Below, one piece after another: positions 2,921 to 64,000 of a stretch of 64,000 bases of DNA. The position numbers were made by a program, and so were the translations under genes. A model generated the notes under the pieces. It worked only from the letters and a program-made list of their open reading frames with translations, was not told the DNA's origin and did no database searches. The DNA is taken from the NCBI GenBank assembly GCA_963082975.1, contig OY720345.1, positions 17,696,491-17,760,490 of the forward strand. The letters run 5' to 3'. Position 1 is the first letter of the stretch. Each line of letters begins with the position of its first letter. Origin of the DNA: Labia minor (taxonomy: Eukaryota > Arthropoda > Insecta > Dermaptera > Spongiphoridae).

Positions 2921-5340
2921 ATCTTCCCCCTACAAGTTAATTTTCGGAAGAAAATGGAGACAATTTATTTGTGTGGAAATAATTAGAGCACTTTTTCTTT
3001 TTTCCGCTATCAACTTCATAAATTGATGTTGAAATTCTTTTCGTAATTTTAAAAGGTCCAGATCTCACTTTATCAGTTTTCTTCCTATTTATTTTGTTTC
3101 CGTTTTCAATATACACTCTATTTCCAATCTTAAATTCATGAGTTTTCCGATTCTTGTCTATTCTTGCTTTATTCTTTTCAAAACTCTTCATTGAATTTTC
3201 GAAAGCCTTCTTCCTTAATTCCATAAGACAATTTCTGTTTAGTTTATCGAATGGATCAATGGGCGATTTTTTTCCAAATAGCAAATATGCTGGTTCAAAC
3301 TTTGTTGAGCTATGAATAGTTTTGTTATATTCTATAACACAATCCTCTGCAATCTTTGTCCAAACTCTGGTATCTCTACTATTAATTTTACATCTTATTC
3401 GGTTAACCAGAGTTTGGTTCAGTCTTTCGTTTAGTCCATTAGATTGAGGACAGTCAATAGTGGTAAATATTAATTTTATTTGATTATTCTTTAAATAATT
3501 TTTGAAATCCTTTGAGTTTAGGGCCGTATATTGGTCAGATAAAATGATTTTAATTTTAGCCTTTTCTTCTAATTTTTCAATCATTTTTATAAAATCTTTT
3601 GCACATTGACCTGTAGAAGTAAATATCCATGCATATCTAGTAAAATGATCAACCAGAATATGCATAAACTTCTTTGGTGATCTGTTTCCTCCGAAACCTC
3701 CCACGGAATCTATGGACATGATCTCATAGGGTTCAGTTGGTGGACCCAACTTTGACATAAAACCTATTTGTCTGCCTCTTCGCACTTTATTTTCTCTGCA
3801 AATTGTACAGTTTTTACAAAATTTATATATTAATTGATCAAAATTTTTAAAATAATAGATTGGTCTTATCTTTTCACTCATTTGACCTGCACCAATGTGA
3901 CCATAGTACTCATGTACCCTTTTTATTAAATTTAAACCAAATTTCTCCGATACAAATATCCTTGATCTACCTCTTAATTTCCTGAATGTAATATTATAAC
4001 GTTTTTCCGTATCTTTAGTAGAATTCAATTCTTTAAAATTTTCTTTTTGATCCTTCTTTATTTCGTTAAGTTCCACTATATTGACTACCTTAATCGTATC
4101 TTCGTTTTCGAAATATTCTAGTATTGGCTGTCTTGAGAGGAGGTCTGCCAGTAAATTGTCCTTTCCTCTTTTATAAATTATTTTGAAATTGAATTGGGAC
4201 AAGTAGTGAACCATATCTCACAATATTTCATCAGTTCTTGACTTAGTACGAAAATTCTCCAATGGTTTGTAATCTCAATACACAGTGAATTCTCGACCAA
4301 TCAAATAATATTGCCAAAACTATATGGCATCTTTAATGGCCTTACACTCTAAATGGATAATGCCTAATTTTTTTTCTTTTTCAGAAAGTCTTCTCGAAAA
4401 ATAGGCTATTGGATATAGCTTTCCATCAACTTGAGGTTGTTTTAGAGTTGCCCCTCTAAGCCCTTTAAACTTGCGCCCGTTTCAATGAATACCTCTTTGT
4501 TGGTATCATAAATTGGTAAAATTGGAGCTGAACATAAATGTTCCTTTATTAAATTGAAGCTGTTCTCACAGTCATCAGTCCATTTAAATTCTGTATTTTT
4601 TTTCAATAGTTTGTGCAAAGGTTCAAGCTTTTCCGAACTTTTTTCAATATATTTCAAGTAAAAGTTTATCGATCCCAATATGCTTCTTACTCCTGATTTA
4701 TCTGTTGGTCTCTTTAGATTTCTTATCGCAATCAAGTTTTCTTGTGTGGGAGATATTTTATTTTCTTGAATAAAATGACCAAGATACTTTACTGAATTAG
4801 CAGCAAATGAGCATTTTTCCAATTTAAGTTTGAAACCCTCCTTTTCTATGACTTGTAATAGTTTCCTAACTTGTTCAACATGTTCATCCCATGTTTTAGA
4901 AAACAGCAAAATATCGTCCATGTAATTTATACAGCATTCATCAAGATTATTTCTTCTAATGACATTTGAAAGAGTCCTTTGAAAAATTGCTGGGGCATTC
5001 TTTAGTCCAAACGGCAGAACCTTGAACATGAACTTTCCAAAATTTGTGATGAATGAAGATTTTTCTCTATCTTTTTCTTTTAAAGGAATATTCCAGAAGG
5101 CAGAGTTTATATCAACTACAGTGAAATATTTGCAGTTAGACACTTTGTCTATCACATCATTTATGGTCGGAAACGGATAACATTCGGGTAAAATTAAGCT
5201 ATTCAACCTTCTGAAATCGATACATAATCTTGTCCTTCGACCATCTTCTTTTTTGTATGCAAGTGTTACAGGTGATGAGAAGGGTGAGTCTGACGTAATA
5301 TGTATTTTCCAAATTTTCATCAATCTTGATTTTCAAAACG
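2921..5340 (-). mobile_element. Ty3/Gypsy LTR retrotransposon fossil (pol part)
   Basis: Read on the minus strand, the order is reverse transcriptase (YMDD box), RNase H, then integrase with an HHCC zinc-finger region, an rve catalytic core and a C-terminal domain. RT-RNaseH-integrase order is that of Ty3/Gypsy. A purine tract at 2922-2932 followed by TG marks the probable start of the 3' LTR. No gag, protease or 5' LTR is recognised, so the left part is lost. The copy is broken, with at least two or three interruptions, but domains are still easy to read, suggesting moderate age. Confidence 0.85.
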
Positions 5341-8925: not shown

Positions 8926-9817
8926 AGGTTTGTAAAAAGAAAAGGTGAATTTGGAATTATTTCGAAAAATATTTATTTATTCATCAATATCCATTTCGTC
9001 CCGTTCAAAGTAATTCCCCTCAGATATAATGCACTTTCTTCCAATCGTCGAAGTAATTTTGAAATGAGCTTTTCGGTATGGCCATCAGCTCGTTCTTCGA
9101 TTCCGACTTTATCTAATCATTTGTGGCAAAACGCTTCCTTTTATTGGTCTCTTCAGTTTTAAGTATAGGAAAAAGTCACGGGGAGCCAAATTTGGTAAAT
9201 ACGGTGGTTGAGACATGATTACGGTGATGTTTTTGGCCAAAAAATCACGACCAAGCAATGATGTGTGAGCTGGTACATTATCGTGATACAGATTCCATGA
9301 TTTGTTTTTCCACAATTCCGATCGTTTGAGCCGTATTGCTTCACGCAAACGTTGCATACCTTCCTTGCAGTATTCCATATTTACAGTACGACTTGTTGGC
9401 AAGAAGTCCTGATGCACACACCATTGTAATCGAAGAAAACAGTAAGCAAAACCTTCACATTTGATCGAACTTGGCGTGCTTTTTTAAAGCACTTGTACTA
9501 ATAAACTTTTTTTTGAGACAAAGTAGACTCGCCGAATGCCAGATTCAACATTTTAGGTGCACTTTATTCCATTTCTAACGCAAAATTTAATATAGATTCT
9601 TGGATCCATTTTTTTTAAAGTAAAAAATCGAGGAACACACAAAAATGTGACTAACTTTTTCAGTAGTCAAAAACAAACTACTAATCCAAAATGGTTGATA
9701 ATGTCAATATATGAGAAACATATGTGTACCAACATTAAAAAAAACACAAATTGCGATAATCGAATATACACAGACCGCGAAAATTTAAAATTCATCCTTT
9801 CTTTTGTACAAACCTCC
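8926..9817 (-). mobile_element. Mariner transposon copy, deleted (892 bp)
   Basis: The ends AAGGTTTGTAAAAAGAAAAG and (opposite strand) AGGTTTGTACAAAAGAAAGG are the TIRs also seen at 23720-24122. TA flanks lie at 8924-8925 and 9818-9819. The coding strand is minus. The length is well below the usual 1.3 kb because the first half of the transposase is missing. The downstream part, about 8990-9110, still reads as the transposase C-terminus but is out of frame. Confidence 0.8.
9109..9417 (-). pseudogene. Mariner transposase fragment (catalytic DD34D part)
   Basis: The frame holds YHDNVPAHTS with the second catalytic Asp and LAPRDFFLYLKLK with the third. Thirty-four residues lie between these two Asp, the mariner DD34D spacing. 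The first catalytic Asp and the N-terminal HTH are missing. The frame closes at a stop shortly after KGSVLPQMIR, where intact relatives continue for about 50 residues. It is inactive. Confidence 0.8.
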
Positions 9818-23500: not shown

Positions 23501-26500
23501 AATGTATATTTCCAATTAGTTAACTCAAGACTAAGTATTACAAATAGCTATCTCCAAAATGCTTAAATATTGCATCATTATTTGTCCCCTATTTACAAAA
23601 TTTAAATATTTTTTAATTTAAATACATGGTCTGTTCAAAAGAAAAGATGAAATTTAACTTGCTTTTTTGTTTTCTTCTTTTATATTGAATAAAATCACTA
23701 AATTAATTATATATATGCACGAGGTCTGTTCAAAAGAAAAGTTAATTTTGAAATTTCGCGGGCAGTATACATTTGATTATCGAAATTTTTTTGTTACACA
23801 CACCGTAATCATGCCTCAACCACCGTATTCACCAGATTTGGCCCCCTGCGACTTTTTTCTATTCCCAAAACTGAAGAGTCCAATGAAAGGAAAACGTTTT
23901 GCTACAATTGATATGATAAAGTCGGAATCGAAGAACGAGCTGATGGCCATACCGAAAAGCGCATTTCAGAAGTGTTTCGACAATTGGAAGTAGCGCTGGC
24001 ATAACTGCATTATATCTGAGGGGAATTACTTTGAACAAAATTGGGACAAAATGGGTATTGATGAATAAATAAATACTTGTCCAAATAATTCAAAATTCAC
24101 CTTTTCTTTTGAATAGACCTCGTATATTGAAATAATATTTACACAAAAATGTATTGTTATAAAATTTTTGTCTTGGAAACATTCATATATGAATTTTTTC
24201 AAAACAATTTCACTCGTATAAATATGTTATTCTTTTTTTCTTCCTCTATAATTGACACTATCTATCTATGACATTTCTCTCCATCCCTTTTAATAAAAAA
24301 TCCCCTTTTGGATTAGTCCTTTCCTGTTCATCTATTATGTTTTATTTCCTTTATTTTCTAACCCGATCCTACTTCCTGTCAGTTTCTTTGTAATCAATTA
24401 CATCATGATCAAAAGGAGACATTGTAATTGAAATAAAAACGAGGGAAATTAAGTTAATATTACCTATATGTATTCATACAATATATAATACTTATATAAA
24501 CTTTATATTATTGTTTATAATTAAATGAAATATATATTTATATATATTTGAATATATTAAAACGTATAAATACTCATAAATAATAAAGTAGATATGTAAA
24601 TGCATATTAATAAAGTCAATCATAGAGAAAACAATTTATTATGATTATCTATAGACCAAGCTATTCCTCTGAATAGGATGGTTTGAAATAATATGTGAAA
24701 CTATAAACTTTCGTCATTGAAAATAAATATTTGCTATCCAGTTGAGAAATTATCTAAAAAAAACCTTAAATAAACAAATATATAAACATGATTGGCTTGA
24801 TTATTCTCTTAAAAATGTGATAATGAAGAATTGAATAATCTTTATACATTTCCAAATAGAGAGCTATTAGAATTATAAAATGAAAAGGGTTAATATGAAC
24901 ATAAGGGATTTTTAGGTTCGAATGTGATAGAAGAAAGATTAATGAAAAAGTTTATTTATAGAGAAGCAATTGGTAAATGATTGTGGGTGGTTAAACCAAG
25001 GACTGTAACGTCTCAGGATGGGGTGGTTGGAGGAATATGTGGTTGTTTCGCGAAAAACCTTTGTGACCAGTACTAATAATAAATATATATAGTATTACAT
25101 TATTACATTAAAAATACGATATTACTATGGTCTTCCTAACTATATTATAAAATAACGTATATATTCAATAGAACAATTATGTATGTTTTCAAATTAACTC
25201 TTTTTTTTTCTATTATTAATCCTAATAGAAGTATAATAATAGAAAAAAAGAAAATCTTCTAATCATTCATTTCCTCAATTAAACTTCTCTAAAGGCTCCT
25301 TAACAACAGAACTTTTTCCCTTGTTCCTTAATCAATGGATCAATGCATTTATATAAATTTGAATTAATATATATATATATATATATATATTAAATATGTT
25401 GACTTGCATTTAATTAATATTTATAAAGTATTTCTTATTTTTATAACTATTAATAGAAAAATGTAAGAAAATCGATTTATATCGAATTATATTAAAAATG
25501 ATTAAAAATCCTTAAATTTATTACTAATAATATCCATCATTTACAATCCAAAAAAAGGTGATAAATATGCATAGCACGAATTCAAAAAGAGAACAACTTT
25601 TATAATAAAAACTTAAAAAATAACAATGTCGAATCTTTTCTAATCATTTTTTTTTTCAATTACAGGTGTTGGTCTTATGACCAGAAAAGTTGGAAATTCT
25701 GTCTCGCCCGTTGTTGAACTTGTTAAGAATGGTGATGAATATACTTTAAAGAGTAGTTCCACATTTAAAAACACCCAAATTACATTTAAAATCGGAGAAG
25801 AATTTGACCAAGAAACTCCTGATGGTAGAAAAGTCAAGGTAAACATTTATTTATTATTATTTCAAAATTATAAGTTTTTTTTTGGTATAAATAAATTTAA
25901 ATAAAAAAGAAAAAGGAAAATAGTTGTTTAAAGTAAATTGACATTGTTTTGTGATTTAACATCCAGAGTAAATTTGCAATTTCTTTCAAAATATTATTGA
26001 TTTATTAATTATATAAAAAAATTTTACATAATTTAAATAAAATGTTTTTAAGTAAAACAATAAGTGTTTAAAAAAGATTATATGCAAAAATACTTATGTA
26101 ATATATGTATATTATTATGATTATTAAGATTATACATTTGTTTACATTGAAAAATATGAAATGATAATTAATACATTTAATTAATGATTATTATTTACAT
26201 AATTATATTTGTTTCATTTTACTGCAAAAGTAGTCTTTTAATATTGTAGATGTAGACAATACATCATTTACAACTCTTCATTTCCTTTCATTATGATAAA
26301 AAATAAAATCCTCCCATATATATATATATATATGAATAAATAATTAAATAAATCAATAATTAAATATTTATTAAAAGAGCAATAATATTTTGTTTAATAA
26401 AAATAAAAAATGTATTTTTGAATTACAATTTTTCTATATAATATAATAATTTCATATTTATTATATAATTATTATCAATTAATGACAAATAAATATTTTA

Positions 26501-36546: not shown

Positions 36547-36726
36547 ATGTTTAATTTTATGAAAAAGAGCACGAATCCGTCATCCTCTTCATCTACTTCA
36601 AATGCATTTGACAAGGAACAAGAAAAAGAAAAAGAAAAAAGAAAAAAAGAAAAACGAAAAATTGAAGGTAGTAAAAAACGGGATCGAGCACATTTAAGTA
36701 CAGATGAAATTCATCGAATTGATGAG
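36547..36726 (+). CDS. Myo18: Myosin XVIII exon 1 (KE motif)
   Basis: Encodes residues 1-60: MFNFMKK, a Ser run, then the Lys/Glu-rich stretch [16 protein letters not shown] typical of the long MYO18A isoform. The start matches the MFNLMKK opening of the vertebrate protein. Donor GAG|GTATGT. Confidence 0.88.
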
Positions 36727-39700: not shown

Positions 39701-42700
39701 GTTTCTGTCAGAAAGCGTTTAAGGTTGAATATTACTTTTTTTTAACATATTCACTAATTGTATATTTTTATCCCATAATCAGATTTTTAAATAATTTAGG
39801 GCATTAGGCTAATTGTTTTTGTACAATTCCTTTTTTTTCAAAAAAAAATTGATTAAAAAATCATTTAATGCTATTTTACGCTGCTAAATAATAAACTCTT
39901 ATTATTTAGAATGCTTTTAATATAACTTTAACTAAAAAAAATTGAATAAAACATATAGTAAATATATATTTAATTAATTTTATAATTTTTCCTGCTATTT
40001 GAATTTTTTCTAACTGATAAGCCTTAAATGATACTAATTAGTATTATAAATAAATAATAAATACATTTTTTAATTTGACTATTATATAAACACAGTTTAA
40101 TAATTTAATATTGGTAAAAGGTACTAACCATTTAATTATTTGAATTTGTAATTTTGAATATTGAAATTTTAAAATAAATAAATTTTAATTATAATCATTC
40201 TAGGTTCGTCGTTCGTTAAAAATAAGAGGTCGACGAAAAGATAAAGAGAAATTGCCTTCTGGAATAACAGCTGATTATACAGCGAGTTTCCTAGCTGGTC
40301 TTGTGGAACATAATGGAGAGGATACAGTGGATCAAGCCCCTTCAACTTCTAGTCTACCGATTCATACTCAGGAGGTTCATATTTATTTACCATTTCTATT
40401 TTCTATTAATGTTCATTTTCATTCATAGTTCTCACTCAAGTTTTTTTGTATGAAACAACCACCAACCTTTATGATGGCGAGAAGGGGGAAAGATTTTTTT
40501 TTTTTTAATGCAATTTAAGAGAATCTCTGTATCTCCCGGGAATGACACAATCTGCATTCACTTTATATTAATTATTACTAAAAATAAAAAAAAACTTTTT
40601 AAAAACACGCTTTTATTTAACTTTTTAGTGCATTTAAATAAAAGCGTGTTTTTACCGACCGACGATAGTAAGGGAGGTATTGTTTTCACACCAAATTTCA
40701 CATGTGGAGATTTTTACATATCTACACGAATCAAGCATTTTCTTAACAGAAAAAAGTATTTTTAGCATGATGTCTGTCCGTCCGTCCGTATAGATGTGTA
40801 CAGCTTGAACGGCTGAACGGATTTTGATGAAATTTGGTATATTTACTTAATGCATCAGTGGGATGAATTGATCAACTTTTGGTGCAAATCCGGAAACCGG
40901 AAGTGGTAGTATTAGCGATCGACGATAGGAAGGGAAGGGTTATTTTCACACCAAATTTCACATCAGGGGATTTTTTACATATCACCACGAATCATGCACT
41001 TTGTATTGGTTTTATCTTCGAGAAAAATCATCTTTATTAGTTTTTCCTTAATTTAAAATTATATGACGTCATCCAGCCATTCATGACGTCACAGCCTGGT
41101 CTTACATATATATTATATATAAAATAAAATTAAAAATATTTATGTTATATCGATATCTGTTTTTTATTACATTAATAGATATATTAAAATTATTTGAAAT
41201 TGTTTCTGTAGCTGGAAATTAATTTTTCAAACCGTCGGTCGGTTTGGACCTGGCCACAGGTCAACTTATTTTATATTTTTTTTATTTCTTAATTTTTAGT
41301 CTTGACAAAAATTTTAGAAATGATTTCAGGTTATAGCAAAGGTTCCCAATCCTTTCCCGTTTGCGGCTCCCTAAATAATCAGATTTTTTCCCCGGTGTCC
41401 TCACTACATCAGATTTTTTTCTAAATTTTTGACTTTCTTTAAAAATTGGAAAACTCCTTTTTACCGACTGACGATAGTAAGGGAGGTATTGTTTTCACAC
41501 CAAATTTCACATGTGGAGATTTTTACATATCTCCACGAATCATGCATTTTCTAAACAGAAAAAAGTATTTTTAGCATGATGTCTGTCCGTCTGTCCGTCC
41601 GTCCGTATAGATGTGTACAGCCTGAACGGCTCAACCGATTTTGATGAAATTTGGTATATTTACTTAATGCATCAGTGGGATGAATTGATCAACTTTTGGT
41701 GCAAATCCGGAAACCGGAAGTGGTAGTATTAGCGATCGACGATAGGAAGGGAAGGGTTATTTTCACACCAAATTTCACATCAGGAGATTTTTTACATATC
41801 ACCACGAATCATGCACTTTGTATTGGTTTTATCCTCGAGAAAAATCATCTTTATTAGTTTTTCCTTAATTTAAAATTATATGACGTCATCCAGCCATTCA
41901 TGACGTCACAGCCTGGTCTTATATATAAATATATACATATATTATAAATAAAATAAAATTAAAAATATTTATGTTATATGCCTATATGTTTTTTATTACA
42001 TTAATAGATATATTAAAATTATTTGAAATTGTTTCTGTAGCTGGAAATTAATTTACTTCAAACCGTCGGTCGGTTCGGACCTGGCCACAGGTCAACTTAT
42101 TTAAAAGCGATTACCCAAAAATTAAAAACTTATACTTACCATTACGGCCCCCTAATGACGACAACGCGGCTCCCCGGGGAGCCGCGGCGCACACTTTGGG
42201 AATCACTGGGTTATAGTGTGAATGTGTGAAGAATTATAATATAGTTTTTGAAGTTACGTGAAATAATTTTAATAATTTTAACTGTTTTGTTTTAGTTATT
42301 TATTGATGCCTGTTATCAATAAATGAAGCTAATTCAGGTCGATTCTTCACCTCAAAATACTATATATCAAATCGGAAGTATAGTGGACTGATTATTATTA
42401 TTATTATATTATTGGTTTATATATACATATATCTTTTCAAAAACAATATCGCGATTACTTTAATTGATATTCATTTAAATTAAAAAAACGTATCTTATTT
42501 TGACAAAATAATTAAACATGATTTAAATTAATTTAATTAAAATGATAACTTTTAGAATAAATTATTTAATTCAAATGAATTACGAGGGCAGTTAAATAAG
42601 TCTGTGAGTTTTTGAATGAAACCCAGATTTTTTGATAAAAAATTAAATTAGATCTTATTAATATATATATTTATAGATATTTACTGACCTGGGATGATCC

Positions 42701-45700
42701 TGAAAATTGCATTGTCATCTGAGTTACATATGTATGCAAAATTTCAGCTCATCCGAATATTGAGAAGTGGGTCAAATCCACCTTGCAAGATTTGACGACA
42801 GGACACGATGTGAAACTAAATAAAAACGTGTATGAGTTAGCCTTCTTAAAGGATTATTATTCTTTTGGTTAATGAATAACTTAATAACTTAACTCAAATA
42901 TCTATTGAATTTGAAAAAATTTCCGTCTCCTCTATTTAGGTATATTCTGGAGTTTACCACTGTTTCAAAACATTAGGAAGCTCTTTCCTAGAGCTATAAA
43001 TAGATTAATTTATTTATTTTACTTAACTTTTCTATTAGTTTTTTTAATTTAGGCTAAAATTGAAGATTTTTCTTATATTTCTTATTGTTTAAAGTTCAAG
43101 AATCTTCTATAGATATTTTTCGTTTTAAGCATATTCCATTATAAAAGTTTATTCTCATTTTATAACCTTTTTAAAATCGTAATTATTTTTTTTAATGAAA
43201 TATAAATTATTTACAATAAAACAAATTATAATATTTATATTTTTGAAATTTTTTTTAGTCCCCTCAACGGATGACACTTCATTTAGCTGACCCTTCTTTA
43301 ACCCAATCTGATACAAGCAGTGAAACTTCATTAACATCATCAGCAGGACGACCATTACCTCCATTGCCACCAAGGCCTCCGAAACGAGGAATTTTAAAAG
43401 TATCCAAAAATGTCACCAATACCCAAAATACAAAACAACCAAAACCACCACCTGCTACTTTGCCTGGATTATCAGCGGCTGTTGTCGCACAAAATACATT
43501 GCAAAATGAAGGTAAAAAAAAAAATATTAAAATTATTTAATTTTTTTTATATATACGGTACAGTGAAAACAACATGTTTGTAAGGTATATTATGTAACTT
43601 CAGGAAATTTCACTAGGAAAAGTAGCAAGGTCAAACCACACAATATTGGTGGCTCATTCATGTGACCCCTGCGATAGTTAACAATACGCTCAAATAGTTA
43701 TGCAAAAGGTTCAACGTGTGGCACGTATTCGTCCACTGTATCCACATGTTATTCATGTTCATTCATATCATTCAATTTAGGTCAAAATAAATTATCAAAA
43801 TAAAATCTTGAGCATATGGCATGATAGTCTAATAGGACTAAAGTTTGCACAATCACTGATACCACCTCTTCATTTCCATTAGGGTATAATAATGCTCTAT
43901 TTCCAGATACCCATTTATAAAACCCTTTATTTTAAAAATTACTCAAGATCAAAAAAATTTAATCGGAACATTAATCTTTTATTAATTAATTATAAACGTG
44001 AAAGTCTTAATAATAATAGAAATAATAAATAAAGTTGGTTATATTCTCTATTTTCTATTAATAAATATATATATATTTTCTTTTAGTTATATCGTATGAA
44101 AATACAACCAATGGGGTAATGACAGAACATATTCTTGCTATATCACCCGATCAAGAATCTTTATCAGATACAACAAATAGTTCTTTTGCAACTCCACCTT
44201 TGAGTCTTTCCCCTGAAGGTAAGACTCCAGGATTGTACCAACATTCCATAAAAATTGGTAAATATATAATTTTTTAAATGTAAGATCTTAATTTTAATTT
44301 GAAAATATTTTTTTTTTTTTAATATTTTAGATTGTCCTCTACCAAAACTACGTCAAATCTCACTTCCACCTCCACGTGATGTTATTTTACAAAGATCAGG
44401 TCCCTCTGGAGAATTCGGCCTTTCTTTAAGGAGAGCAATTATGCCCTCATCTAGTCCAAACCACCCACCAACATCATTAGTTCTAGCTGAACCAGGACAG
44501 GTAATATTATTTATTCTGTTTTATAAAATATTTGATTAATTTAACTAATTAATTTTATTAATAATATAAAATTACAGATGGCTTCAAGTTCAAATGGTAG
44601 CCATCGTCTTCTTCCGGGGGATCGTTTGAATCAAGTCAATGATATTGAAGTGAAAAATAAACCTAGAGAAGAGATTATACAAATTATTCGTTCAGCTGGC
44701 ACACATTTAAAAATACAGGTTGATTGTTAATTATGAATTTTAATTTGAACATCTTTGTCTAAATTAATTTATTTTAAATAAGATATTTTTTTTTTATAAA
44801 AAAAATTTGATTAGTTGAAATATTAAATTTATATATCTTATGTTTCAGGTTGAACCTATAGTGGAGCTGTCGGAATTTTCCAAACGTTTATTAGTTTCTC
44901 AAGAGGATGACGAAAAAGAAAAACAAAATAATAATTTTTCTTCACCTGCTCTTGAATCATGCAGTTCGAATGGGAGTGGAACATTAAAAAGAAGCGCAAG
45001 TCGACGATTTTATAAAGATTCTTCAACGGTAAGTGTCTATTGTTTATTTATTTGACATATTATAAAAAATATTGTTTATTTTTATTAAAATTTTTTTCTA
45101 AATATAAATTTAATGTAAAAAAAAACATTAGAAACAAATAAGAGTATAAATAAAATTAAATTTTTCCATTGTGTGTGTGAGATATTTCACAAAATATTTC
45201 ATAAAACAATTTGAATCACGCTCAAGTCCCAATTTGATAACTACATTTTAATGAAATTTTATTATACTTTTTAGATTCAACGAGGGTGAATCAATTAAAA
45301 TCTTGAAATTTTAATTAAAACATTTGATACACGATACAAATATTAAAGTTACATATATTTTTCTATGCATTTTTTTTTTTTTTGCATTTGTTAAATGATA
45401 TTGAGTTTGTTTGTTAATTTCATCATCATAGAAAGAAAGGGGGTGTGTGGCCAGCCAATTGCGCACAAGCATCTCTTCAGCAGTGTCATCATCGAATCAT
45501 TTCCCTTCTAGTTCTTCTTTCTTAGACCTAAACATGTGATAATCACTTTAGGATAAATAAGTGCTCATTCAGTGTAGTTCAATTAAATTTTTCAATTTTT
45601 TACTAGTCAGTTTGGCATTGTTATTAAGGAGAATCACGATTCTGATCTGAAAGTTGCATCTTTTCACCATATTTCTCAACCATTCTAAGTTTGAACTGTG

Positions 45701-54700: not shown

Positions 54701-57700
54701 AAAGTGTCTAAAAGAAAAGAATCCCGAAATTGGTACAGTCCCTTTAACAAGTCTAATCCTTTCAACATCCTACACTAATTTAACATTTTTGTGATACATC
54801 ATCACCAGGATATAATCTATATATAATCAAAAATTACAATAATTATTTTTTTTATATTTGATTGATTAAATTAATTTCATCGTTATGTCATCATATTATT
54901 ATTTATTTATTCTATTTACTAACCATTATTAATTTATTTTACATATTTATGAAAAATTTTGTTCAATTTAAAGACTAATAAGAATAAAAATGAAAAATAT
55001 CATTATCCATTTGGAAATATTAATCTCTTTAATTAAATTTTTTATATTAAAATTTGAATATATATATATTGTATAGTATATAATTTAAAAAATTATTATT
55101 ATTTAATCCATCAACCATCAAGTTACTTATTTACATGAATATTCGAAAAGATTTTTTAATGTGTGGGAGATGTGCATATCCCCGTTATATGAATACCCGT
55201 TAGGTAAAGATCCTTTATATATATATTAATTTTGCATATAATTCAAGTAGTAGAATATATAAATATATATATATGTGAGGTATTTATAAAATTATTAAAA
55301 TTTATTTCATATTAATAATTCCAACATAGAATAAAATAAAATAAAAAATTATAAATTTAAAATTTGTTAAATTATACTTTTGTAAAGTATTAAGAGATAA
55401 AATTTTAAAAGAATACATAAAATAAAAATAAAAAACCTGTTAGAAAATACAGCTTATTTGTTGATGAAGACATTCAATAAAATATCTTATAATAGGGGGT
55501 GTTTGCAATTTCCTGTGTGAAGAAAATAGAAGACTAGCATCTTCATCATTATATAATGTTTAGTTAGAACTGATGTGATAATAAATGTGATAAAAAATAT
55601 TAATTAATACTTTTTTCATTTTTTTTTTTAAATATTGCAAAATTAATTTTTATTTAAAATAATCAATGTGATTGTATAGATCAATGATTCTCAACCACTG
55701 TGCCGCGAGATTATCAAAATGTGCCTCGAGATTTTCAAAATGTGCAAATTTTACAAATGTAAAGTTCAAATTAAGAAAAAGTACTTATTTATTTTATATA
55801 TATATATATATATATATGTGTAAAAAAAAATTGTAAAATGTTTTTGCGATCAGACTCTTAAACATTTTCGACTTTTTTTCACTATGGTTCTAAAAAAAAA
55901 AGAAAAGGTAAAATGTTTTTTTCAATATGGTAAATAGGTAAATAACTTTTACACTTATCTTTTTCTTTGTGTGCCGCCAAATTTTTAAACCGTTAAAAGA
56001 GTGCCCCGGTAAAAAAAAGGTTGAGAATCACTGGTATAGATGAGTTAAATTTTCAATAAGTTATTGGGGTTCAAATTCCTTCAAATTTAAGAAATTTTTA
56101 AATTATTAATAATAAAAAATAGTGCAATAAAACATTTATATAAAATTTATCTTTGGTTATTATAAGGATTAGTTATACTTTAAAATTTTAGAAAAATATA
56201 CATTAATTTATTTCAAAATTTTTTTTATAGAGAAAATATGTGAATGGTAAAGAATAAATAATCGGTTTGTGATGTTTTTCGAGAAATGATTCGAATATAG
56301 GTTGCTGGAATATTTGATGATGATGTTGATGATGAAGATGATGATTTGATAAATGAGAGTGAATGTGTGAGTGTGTGTATCCTGGTGGCCGTGTTGTCCT
56401 TGAAAGCTGAAGTCTACGTCCTGAGGTGGCCCCACCTGTGCTCGGTGTTCCTTTTCCTTATTCGGCCCCTCTCACTCAGTTGTCCAACAACGGCTGCCTG
56501 GCCACCAGCTGCTTGGCTCGGCCTGTCTACGGTGTTTGCCTTTCCCAAACGAAAATCTCTCTCTGTGATTTTATCTCTCTCATCATCTCTCCCAACTCAG
56601 TGTAACTGTGCGGCAAAGAAATATCAATTCTGAAATAAATCATTAATTTATTTAATATTCATTCATATATGAATATGATTTAAAATAAAAAAAAATTAAA
56701 TCAAGTGACATTTGTGTGTTTATTTGAAGTTTTATTTTACTCTTATAATGGATCATCACAAAAATTAAACTTTAAAATTCCAATTCAACTAAAAATGTTT
56801 CGTCTTGTATATCGATTTCCTCAATTTCACATTTGGATTTTATCTTTTTTTTATATTCTTCATGTTTTTTTATAATTCAAAATTAGATCATATACAAAAT
56901 GTTAAATACAAAGGCCAATATTAAATCCATTTTCACGACGTTGAAAAAATATAATAATAGTACAAATTCTTTAAATATGGGTTCCCCAAAACCCGATGAT
57001 AAATTGACAAACTCTACAAACGCAAAGCAGACAACAAATAAAGTGAAAAACAAATCCATGGAGTCGTTAAGTATGAAAACGGCTAAAAAACCACCCACTC
57101 AAACCCATCAGAAAGCAGAACGGCGTAATTCTTACACTGGAATTGCTTCTTCAACAATTTCAAGTCCACCCACTCTTTCCACAACCTCCAATACAACAAC
57201 ACCTACACTCGAAATGAATAAAAAAAACAAAATTGTAAATAGAAATATTAAAAGAAATTTACCAAAAAACAATTCAAAACTATCGAAATTTATAGCAGAT
57301 TTAATTGAGGAGAGTCTTTATAAAAGAGAGGGGGTCGATTCTTATCCAAATATTGAAATAAATCAGCAACAACTCCCTCAGGTTTGTTTGATTTTTATTT
57401 TAGTTCTTCTATAATTTTATATCAATTTTTTTCCAATAAAAAGACTCAAAAGCGCTTGACAAGTGTTTGTGGATATAAAATTTATAAAGAAAAATTTTAT
57501 ATACATTTCATTATATATTTATTTTTAATTTTATAAATACTTGAATAAGGTTTATAAATTCTCACTGGAAAAGAAATTGAATGAACATTCCTGTCAATTT
57601 TTTTTTTCATTTTTAAATCATTTCTATATTTTTTAAATGAAGAAAAATCATTAAGTTAATTTATGATAATTGTATTTTGTATCAAATTCTTTACTTTTTT

Positions 57701-60700
57701 CTAATGATGATATTTTATTTTATTTTATTTTTTAATATATAAGAAAATTCATTGAAAATGTATTAAACAATTTTTTAAAATGATTTAATTAAATTATTAT
57801 CTATTTTTGTTTCTTTATAGGCCCGAACCGAAAGTGAATTACTTGATTCCCAATCAAGCGAGCAAAGTTTTTGGTTAATGCACCGATCTGGTTTTTCGGA
57901 AGCGACCCTTGTCGATGATGGTTCTGCCACCCCCACGAGTATAGTTGCTTCACCTTCTTCATCAGCTGTGTCCCAAGATGTTGCTGGAGGTCGTGTTTCT
58001 GTTCGTCTTGAAGCTACAAAGCAAATTATCACAATTCATCCCGATGATTTAGAAAAGGTATTAAATTATTTTTCTAGTTTCATATTAAATGATATTTATA
58101 ACATAATATTTATTATTATTTTTGTTTTGTAATAATTATTAGAAAAATTAACGTTATTTTGTATTTTTTTTATTTTTATTCATAATTACGATATTAAATT
58201 GAAAAATATTCATATATTAGATAAGAATATAAATTATTTATTAATTTTTTTTTTGTTTCTTTAAGGCAAATCCTCCTTCAATGGACTTTTGTGAAGATCT
58301 TTGTCAATTAAGGCATCTCAATGAGTCCTCTGTACTTCATACAATTCGTCAACGCTTCGGAAATCATCTCATCTATACTCGGGCTGGACCAGCGCTCATT
58401 GCTATTAATCCATCAGTACCTTTACCTATCTATAGTGACAAAGTAATTAATTCTTCTATCCAATTATATTTACTTTTAATGATAAAGAAACTTTTTCTTT
58501 TTTATTTCATAAAAATACAAAAATATTTTTAAATTAATGAAAAAATATAATTGATTAATATTTTTACTATTTTTATAATTGAATAGTTTTTTTCATTAAT
58601 TTTAAATCGATTGCCTGAAGTTAAGAAAAATATTCTTACATTTACAAACGATATTCTTACATTTACAAACATCTTAAGTTTAAAAATTTTAATAATAATT
58701 ATTTATAATCTTATTTTATAAAAATTGTATTTTTTTTTTTATTTTATTTTAGTTAGTGCCTCTTTTACGAGGATGTAAACCTGAAGATACCCCTCCGCAT
58801 ATCTACAGTTTAGCTCAACAGGCATTTCAGCAAGCAATGTCTACTCGTAGGGACCAAAGCATTATCTTTTTGGGACGATCTGGTTCGGGATCTACCTCGA
58901 ATGCTCATCGTGCCATGGAATATATTGCCCAAGCCGCTACTCCCTCTTTTTCCGGGGCTTCCAAAGGTTCTGAACGGGCCAACTCTGTTTCTTCAACCAC
59001 TACTCTTACTCAGTCTTCCTCTAATAATAATTTTATGAGTAGTGGAAAGGTAACTAACTTTCAATTTAAAAAAAAAAATAATTTTATTATTTTATTTTTT
59101 AAAAGAAATTTTTGTTTTAATAACAATCGAAAGAATAATTTCTTATTGTTTTTTTAATTTTCAAGGGAACAATTACAGTTGAACATCTCCAGGCGGCATG
59201 GATTATCCTTGAAGCTTTTTGTAATGCCCAAACGCCTTTAAATTCAAACGCTAGTCGAGCTACTCAACTATGGACTTTAGAATTAGATCATTCTGGTTTC
59301 ATCAATACAGTATCAATTCAAGTAATTAATTTTTATTATAGCTTTAATTCCTTAATAAAAATTAAGAAAAGAAACATTAATTAAATAAATTAATCAATAA
59401 ATAACGTGAGAATCTTTATAAAACCTATTTAGAAAATATATAGTAGGTTTCTAAAGAATTTAAATGAATTAAAATTAATTTATTTTGTTATTATGATATT
59501 AAATTTATTTAAATGACATTTAAATAGTGATGGGAAGATATCAATTTTTTTTTTATTTTATTAACAATAAAAAGTCTTAATTTTATTCCCTTTTTTAATG
59601 AAAAACTTATAAAACAAGAATAATATCTTATTTTCATTCTTTAATTTTCAAAAAACAAAAATTAATCAATTAATTGAATGATTTATAAAATACATTTTGA
59701 TAATCAATTTTCTACCTCATTTATTGTTTAAAAAATATAATATATATTGAGAAATTAAAATAAATTTTATTAAGAATAGAATTACAAATATCGCAGAAAA
59801 TTATGATTCCGAATCCTATGTTGATTTCTAAATATTCTACCTGATAACAATTTCAATCTAAGAAAAAATATAAATTATAGAATCCAAATCAGTACATAAA
59901 GATTATTAATTCTTTTGTTGTTTTCTTTTTAACAGGTGTTGCTTCTTGATCGAGCGCGAGTTTTCCGACGGCGTTCAACGTCTGCAACTCAACCTGATAA
60001 TAATTTTCATGTCTTTTATTATTTATTAGCTGCTGCTTGTGACGATGAAACACCTCTACCTAGGGATTTACAACTTCAATTAAACCTTCAGGTATGACTA
60101 GAATAATTTATTGAATATTTATTTTTATAGATTGATTTTAATTTTAAATCACTTTCAATTAAATAGACTCGATCCCATGGACAATCGCCAAATCCAGTAG
60201 CAACATTGGTTTCTAATATAGGCACGTCGAATACATCGGGGCCCGCAAATTCAGGAAACTGTATTCTTGGATGGACTCGTTTAGTTGCAGCTATGCATCG
60301 TTTGGGATTCCAAGAAAATGAAATGCGTGTCATTTGGAGTATTTTAGCTGCAATAATTCATTTGGGCGCTGCTGGTGTTGTTAAAGGTATTTCCATTTTA
60401 TTCTAAACATATATCTTATGTTGACTTTTTACATTCGTGCTTTGACTAAATGAATATTTAAAAAAACCATGTCTTACATTCACTATTATAAATAAGAGTG
60501 AACATTAATTTAATTTAATAACATAAAAAATTAAAATTAATATTGTTTAAATATTTATATATTTTCAGTTGGTTCAAGATGGCAATTTGGACAACCTCAT
60601 TGGGCACAGGTGGCATGTCAACTGCTTGGAATTGCTTTCGATGATCTTGCTAGAGTTCTCTTTAATACTACCAATGCAAATATTTCAAATTCTAATTCTA

Positions 60701-63435
60701 ATTCTCCTAATAATACTCCTCGTACACAAACTCCAAATTCTTCTGGAATCAGGTATTAATATCTGTTATTTTTTAATATATATTCATAAATATTATTTAA
60801 AATTAACAAATATTACTTATTTTTAATTAATTAGGACACCTTCGCCGGAAAGTTCAAATCACCCATCTTTAGGTGGAAGTGGTATCGATAATCTTGAGGC
60901 TCTTCTTGGGTCTTGGTATGGCGAATTAGTAGGACTAGTACTTTCAATAGTTAATAGGTATATTTTTAATATCTTTGAATTAATTAAAAATGATTAATTA
61001 AATTGATAATTCAATCTAAACTTTTTTCTTTTAAGAAATTTATCTTCTACAAGTCACGGTGTCTGCAGTATTTTAATATTAGATACACCTGGTTTTCAAA
61101 ATCCTTCTACTGCTAGTGTACAAAATTTTGGAACTCTTGAAGATTTATGGACAAACTATTTTCATGAAAGACTTCAAAGTTTAATGGAACATCAACTTTT
61201 AGCCCAGCCCAGGACTAAATATTTACAAGTAAATTGATTATTTTTTTTTATTTTTTTAATGAATGTAAAATTGAATAATAATTCTTATATTTATTCTCTT
61301 TTGTAGGAGCAAATAACAATTGATCTTGATGATGAGCTCGTAGATGAATATCAGCTTGTAGGTTTCCTTGATAGGGAACCTCGTCCTTGGGCACCCATGA
61401 GTAATCTTCTTCGACATTCCGCATCTCCTTCATCAAATACTAATTCTTCGAATAATACACATTCTCATGTTACCAATAATCATTATACTAGTCCATCGGG
61501 GTCCTCGGGATCAAATAATCACGAAACTTCTGGTAATTTGTGAATATTTTATTTTACATTTACTAAATTATATTTGGTGTTCGAAAACAAAATTATAAGT
61601 GTTTTTTTGATAATTTTCTAAAAGAACACCCAACACCTAGTTATATGATTTTAATAACTATTCGAAATTACATACTTTTTTGATTACAAAATATTTTGTT
61701 GTAATATAATATATGTGGATTTATTAATCAAAGGAAATTAAAAAACTTATAATAATAATATAAAAAAATCAATTTTTTATAATTATATTAATATTTTATG
61801 TTTCTTTTATTAATATTAATACAAATTAATTATTTTATTTTCAGAATCATTAGATTCCTCGGAAAAGCCTGGCTTACTTTGGATTATAGACCATGAGGCA
61901 ATGATGTTACCTGGTACTTCAGATCAACAACTTCTAGAAAAAATCTTTAACTATTACAATGATCGCGGTAATTAAAATATTATTATACTTATTTAAAACA
62001 TTATTTAAATTAAAACATGACAAATTTATTTTGAAAATTTCTGTTATTTTATTAGTTTTGTAAATTCATTTTTATTAAATATATACTTATATAAATATTA
62101 ATATAATATATGTTTATAACATTTGATTTTCCAATAACGTTCTTATTTATTAAACTTTTCTTAGCAGAAGACCATTTGCTAATTCGACGTCCACCTACTG
62201 GAGGAACTACTCCTTCTTGTCATTTAGCAATTCAACATCTTAGGGGTACTAATCCCGTCCTATATAATCTTAATGGTTGGTTAAGGAAAAGTCGAGAACA
62301 TCCCGTTCACGGTCATGCTATTGGTTTACTTCACTCAACTCAAAGGTAAAATGAATTAAATCATTTTTTTAATATGATAAATTATATTATTTAATTAATG
62401 ATTGTTATTAATAACAATTTCTAGAGATGAAATTTGTCAATTGTTTCGTGGAGGTTCTCTGTTGGCTACGACCCTTCCTTTGGGTCCAGGAGTGGCGGAT
62501 GTTGTTGCTAGTGCCTCAGCATCAGCTGCTGCTGCTTCTCTTCGACGAGCCAGTTCAATACGTCGTACCCAAGCACATACAGGGGCTGCAATCAAACGGA
62601 AATCACTGTGTTTACAAGTGAAATTCACTGCTGATGCTATCATTGAAATTCTCCGAAAAACTTCTGTCTTTTATGTATATACAATGATTGGAAACAATAC
62701 ATCCTCTAATTCAATCAATGATGATCTCAACGTACCTATGCTACGTTCTCAGGTTAGTTGATATTATAATTTTGGAATCAAACTTTTTTACAACTTTAAA
62801 ATTAAATAACTTATCTTTTGTCTTATTTAAACCAAAACAATAAATATATTCATTAATTTTATGAGTTTCATATGACATAATTTTTCTTATGCTTGAAGAC
62901 GATAATTAAATTAAATATTTCATAGTTATAAAATCATTTTTACGGAAATTATTATCAATGAAACCCCTTTATAATTAATGAACTCTTCTTTATATTAAAC
63001 ATTTGTTTTTAAGAATAAAATATTTCCTTAAGGGAATAAAATTTGATTTGATTAATAAAATATTTTCATAGATATTTTTCTTATGTTTCAGTTAAGAGGA
63101 TCTCAACTATTACCAATTATGCGCCTCTACAAACAAGGTCTACCATTCGCGATGCGTTTTGGTGAATTTGCAAGACGATTTAGTTTACTCGCATTACCAT
63201 CTGAGGTGAGTTAGAATATTTATTTTTGTTATATTTATATTATTTATTTATTTTATAAATTGATTTTAATTTACTCATAATTTATTTTTAGTCTTGTGCT
63301 GTTCCTCCTGTTCTGTCAAAATTAATATCAAGATCTTCACGATGTAGTTTGGATGAGGAAAAAGAAGCTGCCAAATGGTTACAGGAAAATATAGATGGTC
63401 TTGAATCATCTCATTGTCGACTTGGCTCCAGTCAG
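36547..63435 (+). CDS. Myo18: Unconventional myosin XVIII (MYO18A/Mhcl type), 3' end beyond window
   Basis: A class XVIII myosin tethers actin to membranes and protein partners and is thought not to be a working motor. Joining 22 exons gives 1362 codons in frame. Domain order: KE-rich N-terminus (about residues 20-45), Ser/Pro linker, PDZ (about 255-350, loop FGLSLR), then the myosin head from about residue 410. Head landmarks are [24 protein letters not shown]-loop GRSGSGST (588-595), switch I NSNASR (672-677) and switch [10 protein letters not shown] (D942). The P-loop lysine is replaced by Ser594. The neck and coiled-coil tail must lie past 64000. Long Asn/Ser-rich loops interrupt the head. 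An internal ATG exon (56899) would give a PDZ-less form. Confidence 0.93.
36727..40203. other. Myosin intron 1
   Basis: AT-rich. Contains a tandem duplication at 37550-37841 and otherwise nothing recognisable. Confidence 0.45.
37550..37841. repeat. Tandem duplication, unit about 144 bp
   Basis: ATTGTATTCAATCACATAAG starts both units (37550 and 37694). They remain similar to AAAGATTAAATAA with small indels. Confidence 0.75.
40204..40374 (+). CDS. Myo18: Myosin XVIII exon 2
   Basis: 57 codons, basic at the start ([20 protein letters not shown]) then [18 protein letters not shown]. Phase 0 at both ends. The donor GAG|GTTCAT is weak, but the frame joins exons 1 and 3 exactly. Confidence 0.75.
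40653..41269 (+). mobile_element. HINE-B element, copy B3, in myosin intron 2
   Basis: Full-length, same layout as B1, with TGACGTCA at 41064-41071 and 41084-41091. Just upstream (40600-40652) is a near-perfect palindrome, AAAACACGCTTTTATTTAA and its reverse, which shares its motif with family G. Confidence 0.65.
41337..42208. mobile_element. hAT MITE interrupted by HINE-B
   Basis: The ends CAAAGGTTCCCAATCC and (opposite strand) CAGTGATTCCCAAAGTG are flanked by the perfect duplication GGTTATAG at 41329-41336 and 42209-42216. The right part carries GCGGCTCCCCGGGGAGCCGC, a perfect palindrome. HINE-B copy B4 fills 41462-42100. Confidence 0.8.
41462..42100 (+). mobile_element. HINE-B element, copy B4
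   Basis: Full-length copy inserted after a T-run inside the hAT MITE. TGACGTCA lies at 41881-41888 and 41901-41908. It is very similar to B3. Confidence 0.65.
42581..42645. mobile_element. Terminus of the 5843-type mariner-like element
   Basis: CGAGGGCAGTTAAATAAGTC continuing to GAATGAAACCCAG and TTTTTTGATAAAAAATTA matches one end of the element at 5843-6371. The other end is absent. Confidence 0.6.
42670..42840 (-). mobile_element. Repeat family G, copy 2
   Basis: Inverted relative to 12535-12660 and longer. It includes GTGGGTCAAATCCACCTTGC and GGACACGATGTGAAACTAAA and ends at AAACGTGT. The left part (CTGACCTGGGATGATCC) is absent from copy 1. Confidence 0.5.
42841..43258. other. Myosin intron 2, last part
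   Basis: AT-rich, nothing recognised. Confidence 0.4.
43259..43511 (+). CDS. Myo18: Myosin XVIII exon 3 (Pro-rich linker)
   Basis: 84 codons plus one base. It contains the Pro-rich stretch [15 protein letters not shown], a possible SH3-type ligand, and [10 protein letters not shown]. Acceptor TTTTTTTAG, donor GAAG|GTAAAA. Confidence 0.85.
43512..44086. other. Myosin intron 3
   Basis: 575 bp. The first 300 bp is less AT-rich than most introns here (GGTCAAACCACACAATATTG, CACGTATTCGTCCACTG) but has no splice-flanked frame. Confidence 0.4.
44087..44218 (+). CDS. Myo18: Myosin XVIII exon 4
   Basis: Encodes [20 protein letters not shown] and the Ser/Thr-rich linker up to LSLSPE. The donor used here is GAAG|GTAAGA. 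A second in-phase donor, ATTG|GTAAAT, lies 39 bp downstream and would add 13 residues. Confidence 0.8.
44331..44500 (+). CDS. Myo18: Myosin XVIII exon 5 (PDZ start)
   Basis: Encodes [20 protein letters not shown] and the PDZ carboxylate-binding loop [10 protein letters not shown], through LVLAEPGQ. Acceptor ATATTTTAG, donor CAG|GTAATA. Confidence 0.88.
44578..44718 (+). CDS. Myo18: Myosin XVIII exon 6 (PDZ)
   Basis: 47 codons including [15 protein letters not shown] and [14 protein letters not shown], equivalent to [31 protein letters not shown]-type PDZ strands and helix. Donor CAG|GTTGAT. Confidence 0.88.
44849..45028 (+). CDS. Myo18: Myosin XVIII exon 7 (PDZ end, linker)
   Basis: Begins [15 protein letters not shown], matching the VQPIPELSELSRSWL segment after the vertebrate PDZ. 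It then runs to a Ser-rich, basic linker ending YKDSST. Donor ACG|GTAAGT. Being phase 0, it can join exon 9 at 57821 directly. Confidence 0.88.
45420..45775 (+). promoter_or_regulatory. Unexplained conserved-looking patch in myosin intron 7
   Basis: A 350-bp stretch of near-normal composition holds two TCAGT initiator-like sites (about 45570 and 45608). It ends in AAAG|GTCAGT, a reasonable splice donor near 45775. It could be a non-coding alternative first exon or an enhancer. No frame supports coding. Confidence 0.3.
45776..47839. other. Myosin intron 7, AT-rich
   Basis: No gene. Open frames such as the minus-strand one at 47584-47826 have no recognisable motif and are about as long as chance allows here. 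Confidence 0.4.
48583..49602. mobile_element. hAT MITE D2, filled with HINE-A
   Basis: An inverted sister of D1 (18636-19046), with ends CAAGGGTGGCCAACCC and GGTTGGCCACCTCTG. The flanks CCCTAGGA and CACTAGGA are an 8-bp duplication with one difference. The HINE-A copy at 48729-49354 splits it. Confidence 0.8.
48729..49354 (+). mobile_element. HINE-A element, copy A4
   Basis: From ACTATCTCGCCAGAGATATT to CACTCCAGCT. It matches A2 but lacks part of the centre. It interrupts the T-run that is intact in MITE D1, so its borders are defined. Confidence 0.7.
49761..51499. other. Myosin intron 7, AT-rich
   Basis: A short direct duplication at about 50100-50155 (AAAAATATTTTATTTAATTA twice). A GC-richer patch lies at about 50650-50715 (CTATCGGTCGGTCGTTGCTT). 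No gene. Confidence 0.4.
51500..51950 (+). mobile_element. Diverged HINE-B-like 3' half
   Basis: GCCTCGGGAAAAATAATCTT then TTAGTTTTTTCTCAATTTAA and TATAAATAAAATAAAATTAA align with the 3' half of family B. The end differs: AAAGTACC and GGTACTTT pair around an internal GAGCCGCGGCTC palindrome (about 51915-51950). Confidence 0.45.
51951..52869. other. Myosin intron 7, AT-rich
   Basis: The short frame at 52044-52268 has no recognisable domain. Nothing else seen. Confidence 0.35.
52870..53950 (-). mobile_element. Repeat family F, copy 2, with an inner TIR-bounded segment
   Basis: An inverted copy of 21335-21900. It carries an added stretch of about 480 bp (52971-53452) whose two ends are inverted copies of a 65-bp motif containing CCAACGTTTTTCGTTGAATA. 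The GTCT-type microsatellite end lies near 53905-53935. Confidence 0.6.
53951..55681. other. Myosin intron 7, AT-rich
   Basis: A more complex patch at about 54115-54300 (GGACCATCTATGCCTATGGT, AGGAGGTTTTAGCTCC) has no frame or repeat partner. No gene. Confidence 0.35.
55682..56033. mobile_element. hAT MITE, 352 bp, with perfect 8-bp target duplication
   Basis: The ends CAATGATTCTCAACC and GGTTGAGAATCACTG are flanked by GTATAGAT at 55674-55681 and 56034-56041. Interior GTGCCGCGAG and GTGCCGCC motifs match the 63475 copy. Confidence 0.85.
56340..56640 (+). promoter_or_regulatory. Candidate internal promoter for the short myosin isoform
   Basis: A conspicuous GC- and CpG-richer island (GGCCGTGTTGTCC, CGGCTGCCTGGCCACCAGCT) lies 250-550 bp before the ATG exon at 56899. 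It contains TCAGTT at 56477-56482 and TCAGTG near 56597, both initiator-like. Neither TATA nor DPE is convincing. PDZ-less class XVIII isoforms from internal promoters are known in other animals. Confidence 0.5.
56899..57381 (+). CDS. Myo18: Myosin XVIII alternative first coding exon (short isoform)
   Basis: 161 codons from [20 protein letters not shown] to [11 protein letters not shown], donor CAG|GTTTGT, phase 0, so it splices in frame to exon 9. It is basic and rich in Lys, Asn, Ser and Thr, with no recognised domain. The interval before it lacks a good pyrimidine-tract acceptor. Homology suggests the long form goes straight from exon 7 to exon 9. An internal exon read from 56887 is the less likely alternative. 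Confidence 0.7.
57821..58057 (+). CDS. Myo18: Myosin XVIII exon 9 (start of head)
   Basis: 79 codons including [16 protein letters not shown], matching the KVWLVHRDGFSLA segment of MYO18A, and [20 protein letters not shown], an SH3-like N-terminal strand set. Donor AAG|GTATTA. Confidence 0.9.
58266..58442 (+). CDS. Myo18: Myosin XVIII exon 10
   Basis: 59 codons. [20 protein letters not shown] is the strongly conserved myosin head start. [20 protein letters not shown] follows, where conventional myosins have TY.G..L..VNPY. Donor AAA|GTAATT. Confidence 0.92.
58753..59049 (+). CDS. Myo18: Myosin XVIII exon 11 (P-loop)
   Basis: 99 codons. [20 protein letters not shown] is followed by [20 protein letters not shown], the P-loop. 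The Walker A Lys is Ser (TCT at 58891-58893). A Ser/Thr-rich, low-complexity stretch of about 35 residues ends the exon. Donor AAG|GTAACT. Confidence 0.92.
59166..59321 (+). CDS. Myo18: Myosin XVIII exon 12 (switch I)
   Basis: 52 codons. [20 protein letters not shown] corresponds to LEAFGN..T..N.NSSRFG. The Asn and Ser-Arg are kept but the Phe-Gly-Lys that normally follows is not. Donor CAA|GTAATT. Confidence 0.9.
59322..59935. other. Myosin intron 12
   Basis: AT-rich, nothing recognised. Confidence 0.5.
59936..60091 (+). CDS. Myo18: Myosin XVIII exon 13
   Basis: 52 codons. [13 protein letters not shown] matches the LEKSRV...ER region, and [16 protein letters not shown] is the FH.FYQLL-type motif. 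Donor CAG|GTATGA. Confidence 0.92.
60167..60386 (+). CDS. Myo18: Myosin XVIII exon 14
   Basis: 73 codons plus one base. [20 protein letters not shown] and [16 protein letters not shown] match the class XVIII head (F..L..AM..LG.S..E). Donor AAAG|GTATTT. Confidence 0.92.
60569..60752 (+). CDS. Myo18: Myosin XVIII exon 15
   Basis: Encodes [20 protein letters not shown] and [15 protein letters not shown], then an Asn/Ser-rich run. The open frame that starts with ATG in this interval is a different, wrong frame. Acceptor ATTTTCAG. Confidence 0.88.
60835..60957 (+). CDS. Myo18: Myosin XVIII exon 16
   Basis: A Ser/Pro-rich start ([12 protein letters not shown]), then [20 protein letters not shown] and SIVNR, the helix before switch II. 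Phase 2 at both ends. Confidence 0.9.
61036..61228 (+). CDS. Myo18: Myosin XVIII exon 17 (switch II)
   Basis: [20 protein letters not shown] holds switch II. DTPGFQ replaces the conventional DIAGFE, so the catalytic Glu is Gln, as in vertebrate MYO18[21 protein letters not shown] follows, equivalent to LC.NY..E.LQ..F. Donor CAA|GTAAAT. Confidence 0.93.
61307..61532 (+). CDS. Myo18: Myosin XVIII exon 18
   Basis: [20 protein letters not shown], then a Ser/Asn/His-rich insertion of about 40 residues ([16 protein letters not shown], then [14 protein letters not shown]). Donor TCTG|GTAATT. Confidence 0.88.
61845..61967 (+). CDS. Myo18: Myosin XVIII exon 19
   Basis: [20 protein letters not shown] and [14 protein letters not shown] correspond to the G.L.LLEEE...PG.....L.....Y head segment. 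Acceptor TATTTTCAG. Confidence 0.92.
62165..62345 (+). CDS. Myo18: Myosin XVIII exon 20
   Basis: [20 protein letters not shown], then [20 protein letters not shown] matching HGTNWVEYNVTGWLNYTK. The acceptor is a TAGCAG tandem, so a form one Ala shorter is possible. Donor AG|GTAAAA. Confidence 0.92.
62425..62752 (+). CDS. Myo18: Myosin XVIII exon 21
   Basis: 110 codons. [20 protein letters not shown], an Ala/Ser-rich loop, [20 protein letters not shown] (basic loop before the actin-binding helix) and [20 protein letters not shown]. Donor CAG|GTTAGT. Confidence 0.92.
62753..63091. other. Myosin intron 21
   Basis: AT-rich, nothing recognised. Confidence 0.5.
63092..63205 (+). CDS. Myo18: Myosin XVIII exon 22
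   Basis: [20 protein letters not shown] then [14 protein letters not shown], the SH1-helix and converter region (LR.SR.LD..R..R.GYP....F.EF..R). The donor GAG|GTGAGT is strong. Confidence 0.92.
63292..63435 (+). CDS. Myo18: Myosin XVIII exon 23 (last in window)
   Basis: 48 codons in the converter: [20 protein letters not shown] then LGSSQ, matching [21 protein letters not shown]. Donor CAG|GTAAGA. The next exon should begin near VFFRAG and lies past 64000. Confidence 0.9.
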
Positions 63436-63474: not shown

Positions 63475-63672
63475 CAGTGATTCTCAACCACTGTGCCGCA
63501 GCACTTTTGTGTGCCGCGAGATTATCAAAATGCGCCAAATTATTACAAATCTAAAATTTTATCAATTTGGTTCTAAAAAATGGTAATTTACACATATCTT
63601 TTTCTTTATGTGCCACCAAATTTTTAAACCGTTAAATGTGTGCCGCGGTAAAAAAAAGAATGAGAATCACTG
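63475..63672. mobile_element. hAT MITE in myosin intron 23
   Basis: The ends CAGTGATTCTCAACC and AATGAGAATCACTG are flanked by ACCTAAGT (63467-63474) and ACCTAAAT (63673-63680), one difference. The interior is like the 55682 copy. Confidence 0.8.
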
Positions 63673-64000
63673 ACCTAAATTATAAAAATACACAGAGTTA
63701 ATCAAATATTCGTTAACACTTTATAAATCTTAATTTAATTTTTTTGTTTCTCCAACTTTAAAAGAATATGTAGTCATTACATAACTTTTTACAATATATT
63801 ATTGTTGATGCATAAACGGAGGGTCATTTTTAAATCTATTATTAAATAATTTTGTAAAAGTTATCTATATGATTAATATAGAAAAAAAGTATGAAGTTTT
63901 TTATTTAATTATTTAAATGTAATGTTCTAATTTATATTTTGTGAGGTTTAAAAAAATCGTCATTTATTTATTAGTTTTGTATTCCAAGAATACTTTTTCT
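63673..64000. other. Myosin intron 23, to window edge
   Basis: AT-rich, nothing recognised. Confidence 0.5.

Follow-up and report, generated by a model that had tools for sequence, protein, structure and literature searches.

The current analysis identified an intact-looking class-18 myosin gene, from an animal that is probably an arthropod, in which the lysine of the P-loop is replaced by serine. The most plausible interpretation, to which we assign a probability of about 0.7 from the sequence, is that the encoded head has no useful means of holding ATP phosphates and would act in a nucleotide-free state as a passive actin tether or brake. The gene lies in the window, i.e. the whole 64 kb stretch of DNA that was analysed, and the coordinates of its features are collected in Table 1.

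The P-loop of the window protein

The initial annotation reported a P-loop in which the lysine codon was replaced by TCT at 58891-58893, and both its coordinates and the codon are right on the raw sequence. Positions 58873-58899 of the forward strand (GGACGATCTGGTTCGGGATCTACCTCG; codons GGA CGA TCT GGT TCG GGA TCT ACC TCG) translate to GRSGSGSTS, with the seventh codon (Ser) standing where Walker A normally has its lysine. When the product was compared with solved myosins using phmmer, the motif GESGAGKTEN was found opposite the P-loop of the window, its lysine facing Ser346 in 3/3 displayed alignments of one run and 5/5 of another; this count covers the displayed alignments alone (seven distinct sequences, one chain being common to both), from runs that matched 150 and 158 sequences. 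The 150 distinct solved sequences were matched at a threshold of 0.001 and, among the 60 matches listed, all are named as myosins. Since the P-loop exon matches myosin heads along its length and the 16 exons of the gene model join in phase, the P-loop is not a chance reading.

According to the code table, TCT differs from the lysine codons AAA and AAG at all three bases; a single-base miscall is thus ruled out, and neither one nor two miscalls could have produced this codon. A search for GxxxxGK[ST] in six frames across the whole 64 kb window returned no match, which excludes an alternative exon encoding an unaltered P-loop inside the window. Residues 308-370 of the chain were checked for a replacement lysine near Ser346 and contain none, so that no neighbour in the chain obviously stands in for the lost residue. 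The possibility that the P-loop arginine compensates for the loss was dropped, as arginine is also printed for Myo18B (PMC11112018).

Structure of the gene

Reading frames and splice signals together gave a model of the head with 16 exons, the first of which supplies the starting ATG; the model extends beyond the end of the window, for which reason the neck and tail are outside the present view. The exon phases are consistent, the 1114 codons are free of stops and GT..AG borders are present at 15/15 introns. The introns (3195 bases) are very AT-rich, with a G+C content of 14.5% versus 39.6% in the coding part. The product contains a myosin head (Pfam Myosin_head, PF00063, E 2.8e-76). No match was obtained when the whole window was searched against Rfam at gathering scores and for tRNAs.

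Table 1. Features of the class-18 myosin gene, in positions of the window.
Feature	Position	Strand	Basis
Putative K/E-rich first coding exon, long form (MFNFMKKS...)	36547..36726	+	translation; joining to head presumed
Putative exon	40204..40374	+	translation; 3' end placed by eye, uncertain
Putative long-form exon, Pro-rich	43259..43511	+	translation
Putative long-form exon	44087..44218	+	translation
Putative exon, first part of PDZ-like stretch	44331..44500	+	translation and weak PDZ match
Putative exon, second part of PDZ-like stretch	44578..44718	+	translation and weak PDZ match
Putative exon beyond PDZ-like stretch	44849..45028	+	translation
16-exon class-18 myosin head model	56899..63435	+	phases, GT..AG, open frame; Pfam Myosin_head
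Exons 1-4	56899-57381, 57821-58057, 58266-58442, 58753-59049	+	gene model
Exons 5-8	59166-59321, 59936-60091, 60167-60386, 60569-60752	+	gene model
Exons 9-12	60835-60957, 61036-61228, 61307-61532, 61845-61967	+	gene model
Exons 13-16	62165-62345, 62425-62752, 63092-63205, 63292-63435	+	gene model
Exon 4, P-loop	58753..59049	+	gene model
P-loop GRSGSGSTS, TCT (Ser) for Lys	58873..58899	+	sequence and alignment to GESGAGKT
Exon 5, switch 1 (NSNASRATQ)	59166..59321	+	gene model and phmmer alignment
Exon 10, switch 2 (DTPGFQ)	61036..61228	+	gene model and phmmer alignment

Two compositional features of the head were observed. Inserts rich in Ser, Asn and Thr are present in exon 4, after the P-loop helix, and in exon 11, and these face gaps in an alignment to a provisional human MYO18A head sequence. 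The head is also poor in lysine, which makes up 19 of the 899 residues between 216 and 1114 (2.1%; window 57983-63435) as against 40 of 812 (4.9%) in a provisional human MYO18A head sequence, while arginine is alike in the two (6.2% and 6.3%). Such a scarcity is odd in so AT-rich a genome, and the loss of the P-loop lysine may form part of a broader lysine depletion in the head.

The gene probably has a PDZ-bearing long form, in which the putative exons located upstream would be spliced to the head. A 115-aa stretch encoded there resembles a PDZ domain (Pfam PDZ, 20.7 bits, E 0.00057), this being a weak match under the gathering score of 23.2 bits, while a longer upstream query of 210 aa returned no Pfam family at 0.001. 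With E values of up to 0.1, the PDZ-like stretch matched 28 PDB sequences, whose names we take to be those of PDZ proteins.

Repeats were observed in this region, as were other open reading frames elsewhere in the window. A unit of approximately 820 bases is present as two direct copies at 40649-42054, between two putative upstream exons, the matched pieces being 94-98% identical. A short repeat ending in gagaatcactg, with copies at 55948-56050 and 63587-63689 (84%) in introns of the myosin gene, looks like a small non-autonomous DNA transposon. The ORF at 25644-25904 (+) contains one exon of a gene for a cytosolic fatty-acid-binding protein (Pfam Lipocalin family, E 1.2e-09), and those at 2937-5332 (-) and 9109-9483 (-) resemble by eye a Ty3/gypsy integrase and reverse transcriptase and a mariner transposase fragment; a Pfam scan of the mariner-like ORF returned no match at 0.001.

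Class assignment and active-site residues

Myo18A and Myo18B are marked by replacement of the P-loop glutamate with serine (Myo18A) or arginine (Myo18B), by a switch-1 Ser-to-Ala change and by a switch-2 sequence of DTxGFQ (PMC11112018). The window protein carries arginine in GRSGSG, alanine at the first serine of SSR (NSNASR versus NDNSSR) and DTPGFQ in switch 2, and because these residues fit the Myo18 pattern the gene is placed in class 18, bearing out the identity proposed in the initial annotation. Residues 162-1114 are identical to the human MYO18A head at 322 of 985 positions (E 2e-140), although the human sequence used is provisional and the comparison serves as a lead rather than a test. 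Prokaryotic and viral contig collections were scanned for class-18 relatives and yielded none, a result that says nothing about animals.

The residues of the active site were numbered after those of Dictyostelium myosin, namely Thr186, Asn233, Ser236, Ser237, Arg238, Asp454, Gly457 and Glu459 (PMC9599734), the matching to the window being our own reading of the phmmer alignment. Switch 1 reads NSNASRATQ, against NDNSSRFGK in smooth-muscle myosin; the equivalents of Asn233, Ser237 and Arg238 are kept, Ser236 is replaced by alanine, and the Phe and Gly that follow are lost. In switch 2 the equivalents of Asp454 and Gly457 are kept and Glu459 is replaced by glutamine. The purine loop (NPSVPLPIY), the glycines of the P-loop and the threonine after the lost lysine are all retained. 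Judged from these residues the pocket is a mixed one, in which the adenine-side and Mg2+-side positions stay, while the lysine for the phosphates and some of the hydrolysis residues are missing. As regards the features of an ATP-driven motor, the P-loop is GRSGSGST in place of the lysine-bearing GESGAGKT, and the salt bridge between switch 1 and switch 2 is ended, since its arginine is kept but its glutamate is now glutamine.

Consequences for nucleotide binding

In the reviewed structures the site at the beta and gamma phosphates of the nucleotide is always filled by the P-loop lysine, which forms bonds to both (PMC6310460). Loss of this lysine makes normal phosphate holding unlikely, and the published role of this residue backs the earlier proposal that the head probably cannot hold ATP phosphates normally; that the protein consequently fails to bind ATP is something we infer from its sequence. 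In kinesin-1, ADP contacts the P-loop Lys91, and substitution of the next residue (T92V) renders the protein unable to bind nucleotide (PMC5307337). The bridge from switch 1 to E459 is required for activity, and its loss has been given as the cause of the lack of measurable ATPase in myosin-18 (PMC3949407); a role for this Arg/Glu salt bridge is also described elsewhere (PMC11112018).

Myosin-18A of fly, mouse and human has been reported to bind actin and to be devoid of ATPase (PMC7900500). As to the vertebrate copies, to which the initial annotation ascribed an intact GSGKT, retention of the lysine in mouse is implied by section 6 of a 2024 review, where the P-loop changes listed are E-to-S in Myo18A and E-to-R in Myo18B, with no loss of the lysine (PMC11112018). 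Given that these relatives are already without ATPase, the functional weight of the lysine loss is smaller than was first suggested, and the loss represents a further step in an enzymatically dead head and not a newly broken motor. Fly myosin-18, in one biochemical study, reportedly does not even bind ATP.

The following mechanism is proposed. The head retains the signature of the myosin fold and has lost the catalytic set, namely the P-loop lysine, the first serine of switch 1 and the glutamate of switch 2; the alanine of switch 1 and the glutamine of switch 2 are marks of the class and the Lys-to-Ser change an extra step. Such a head would most likely have no useful hold on ATP phosphates and remain in a single, nucleotide-free and presumably actin-binding state, in which it may act as a passive tether or brake in this species. 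The N-terminal part would position the protein, and the tail, by analogy with relatives, may co-assemble with myosin-2 filaments; Myo18 has been reported to enter mixed filaments with myosin-2 as a regulator (PMC13249394). What the window itself shows is the sequence, the gene model and the residue changes; actin binding, myosin-2 co-assembly and the absence of ATPase are taken from published work on relatives.

Alternative explanations

It is conceivable, though we consider it unlikely, that weak binding of ATP or ADP persists in the head and serves a structural or regulatory purpose; the contacts would come from backbone amides, Mg2+ and the retained residues of switch 1, with a monovalent cation perhaps sitting where the lysine was. 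Retention of the purine loop, the threonine, the P-loop glycines and the Asn233, Ser237 and Arg238 equivalents leaves room for such binding, and in simulations of Mg-NTP in water the site of the lysine is occupied by K+, Na+ or NH4+ (PMC6310460). Furthermore, some use of ATP in class 18 is suggested by one study, in which Golgi shape after knockdown was rescued by wild-type Myo18A and not by an ATPase-less motor mutant; the Golgi model has been contradicted by other groups, and the review that recounts it terms the ATPase of Myo18A negligible, not zero, and does not decide whether the natural activities of class-18 myosins include an ATPase (PMC11112018). Weak binding is opposed by the constant presence of lysine at that site in the reviewed structures (PMC6310460), by the lysine-free stretch around Ser346 and by the reported lack of ATPase in relatives (PMC7900500).

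An equally doubtful explanation is that the lysine was lost long ago and commonly in class-18 myosins of arthropods or invertebrates, in which case serine would be ordinary for the group and not the step of one lineage. Against this, the P-loop of fly myosin-18 apparently keeps its lysine. Nor is such a loss mentioned for the mouse proteins in section 6 of the 2024 review (PMC11112018).

A decaying copy, with an intact class-18 gene bearing the lysine elsewhere in the genome, is much less probable: the loss of several catalytic positions and the Ser/Asn-rich inserts would suit it, but the stop-free frame across 16 exons and the 15 canonical introns tell against it and leave a pseudogene unsupported. 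Least probable of all is a fault of assembly or sequencing or a rare allele in a species that has the lysine since, even though the locus is known from a single sequence, TCT shares no base with either lysine codon and lies within an open frame that is unbroken to its left and right.

Significance

In the open-licence PMC literature, judged from titles and the openings of abstracts, no description of a class-18 myosin without the P-loop lysine was found, and the available part of a 2007 myosin survey contains nothing on the P-loop (PMC2375034). An intact-looking gene lacking the phosphate-binding side chain argues that class-18 myosins, at least in this species, need no ATPase, although the effect is modest as the class has already been described as being without it. 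Should orthologues show that the loss is inherited and that the rest of the head is under selection, the tether role would be separable from the nucleotide role. A wider and tentative proposition, against which we judge the odds to lie, is that a whole animal lineage turned its class-18 myosin into a natural apo-myosin, constrained, free of nucleotide at all times and serving solely to tether actin; if true, the class-18 head would need no working ATP pocket, and such a lineage would be a natural experiment to settle whether residual nucleotide binding matters in class 18.

Comparison with known myosins

The window protein is like mouse and human Myosin-18A in its DTxGFQ motif, its switch-1 Ser-to-Ala change and the loss of the P-loop glutamate, and the window in addition has the upstream K/E-rich and PDZ-like exons. 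It is unlike Myosin-18A in that the P-loop lysine is serine, that arginine, the residue printed for Myo18B, takes the second P-loop position instead of serine (PMC11112018), that the head carries Ser/Asn-rich inserts and that the switch-1 Phe and Gly are lost. The sole class-18 myosin of Drosophila, Mhcl, is reported to bind actin and to have no ATPase (PMC7900500). Class-2 myosins, represented by smooth muscle myosin (PDB 1br2; 39% identity to the window protein over the N-terminal head stretch compared), keep GESGAGKT, NDNSSRFG and DIAGFE, all three of which are altered in the window protein. Mhcl resembles the window protein in being a class-18 myosin and apparently differs from it by the lysine of its P-loop.
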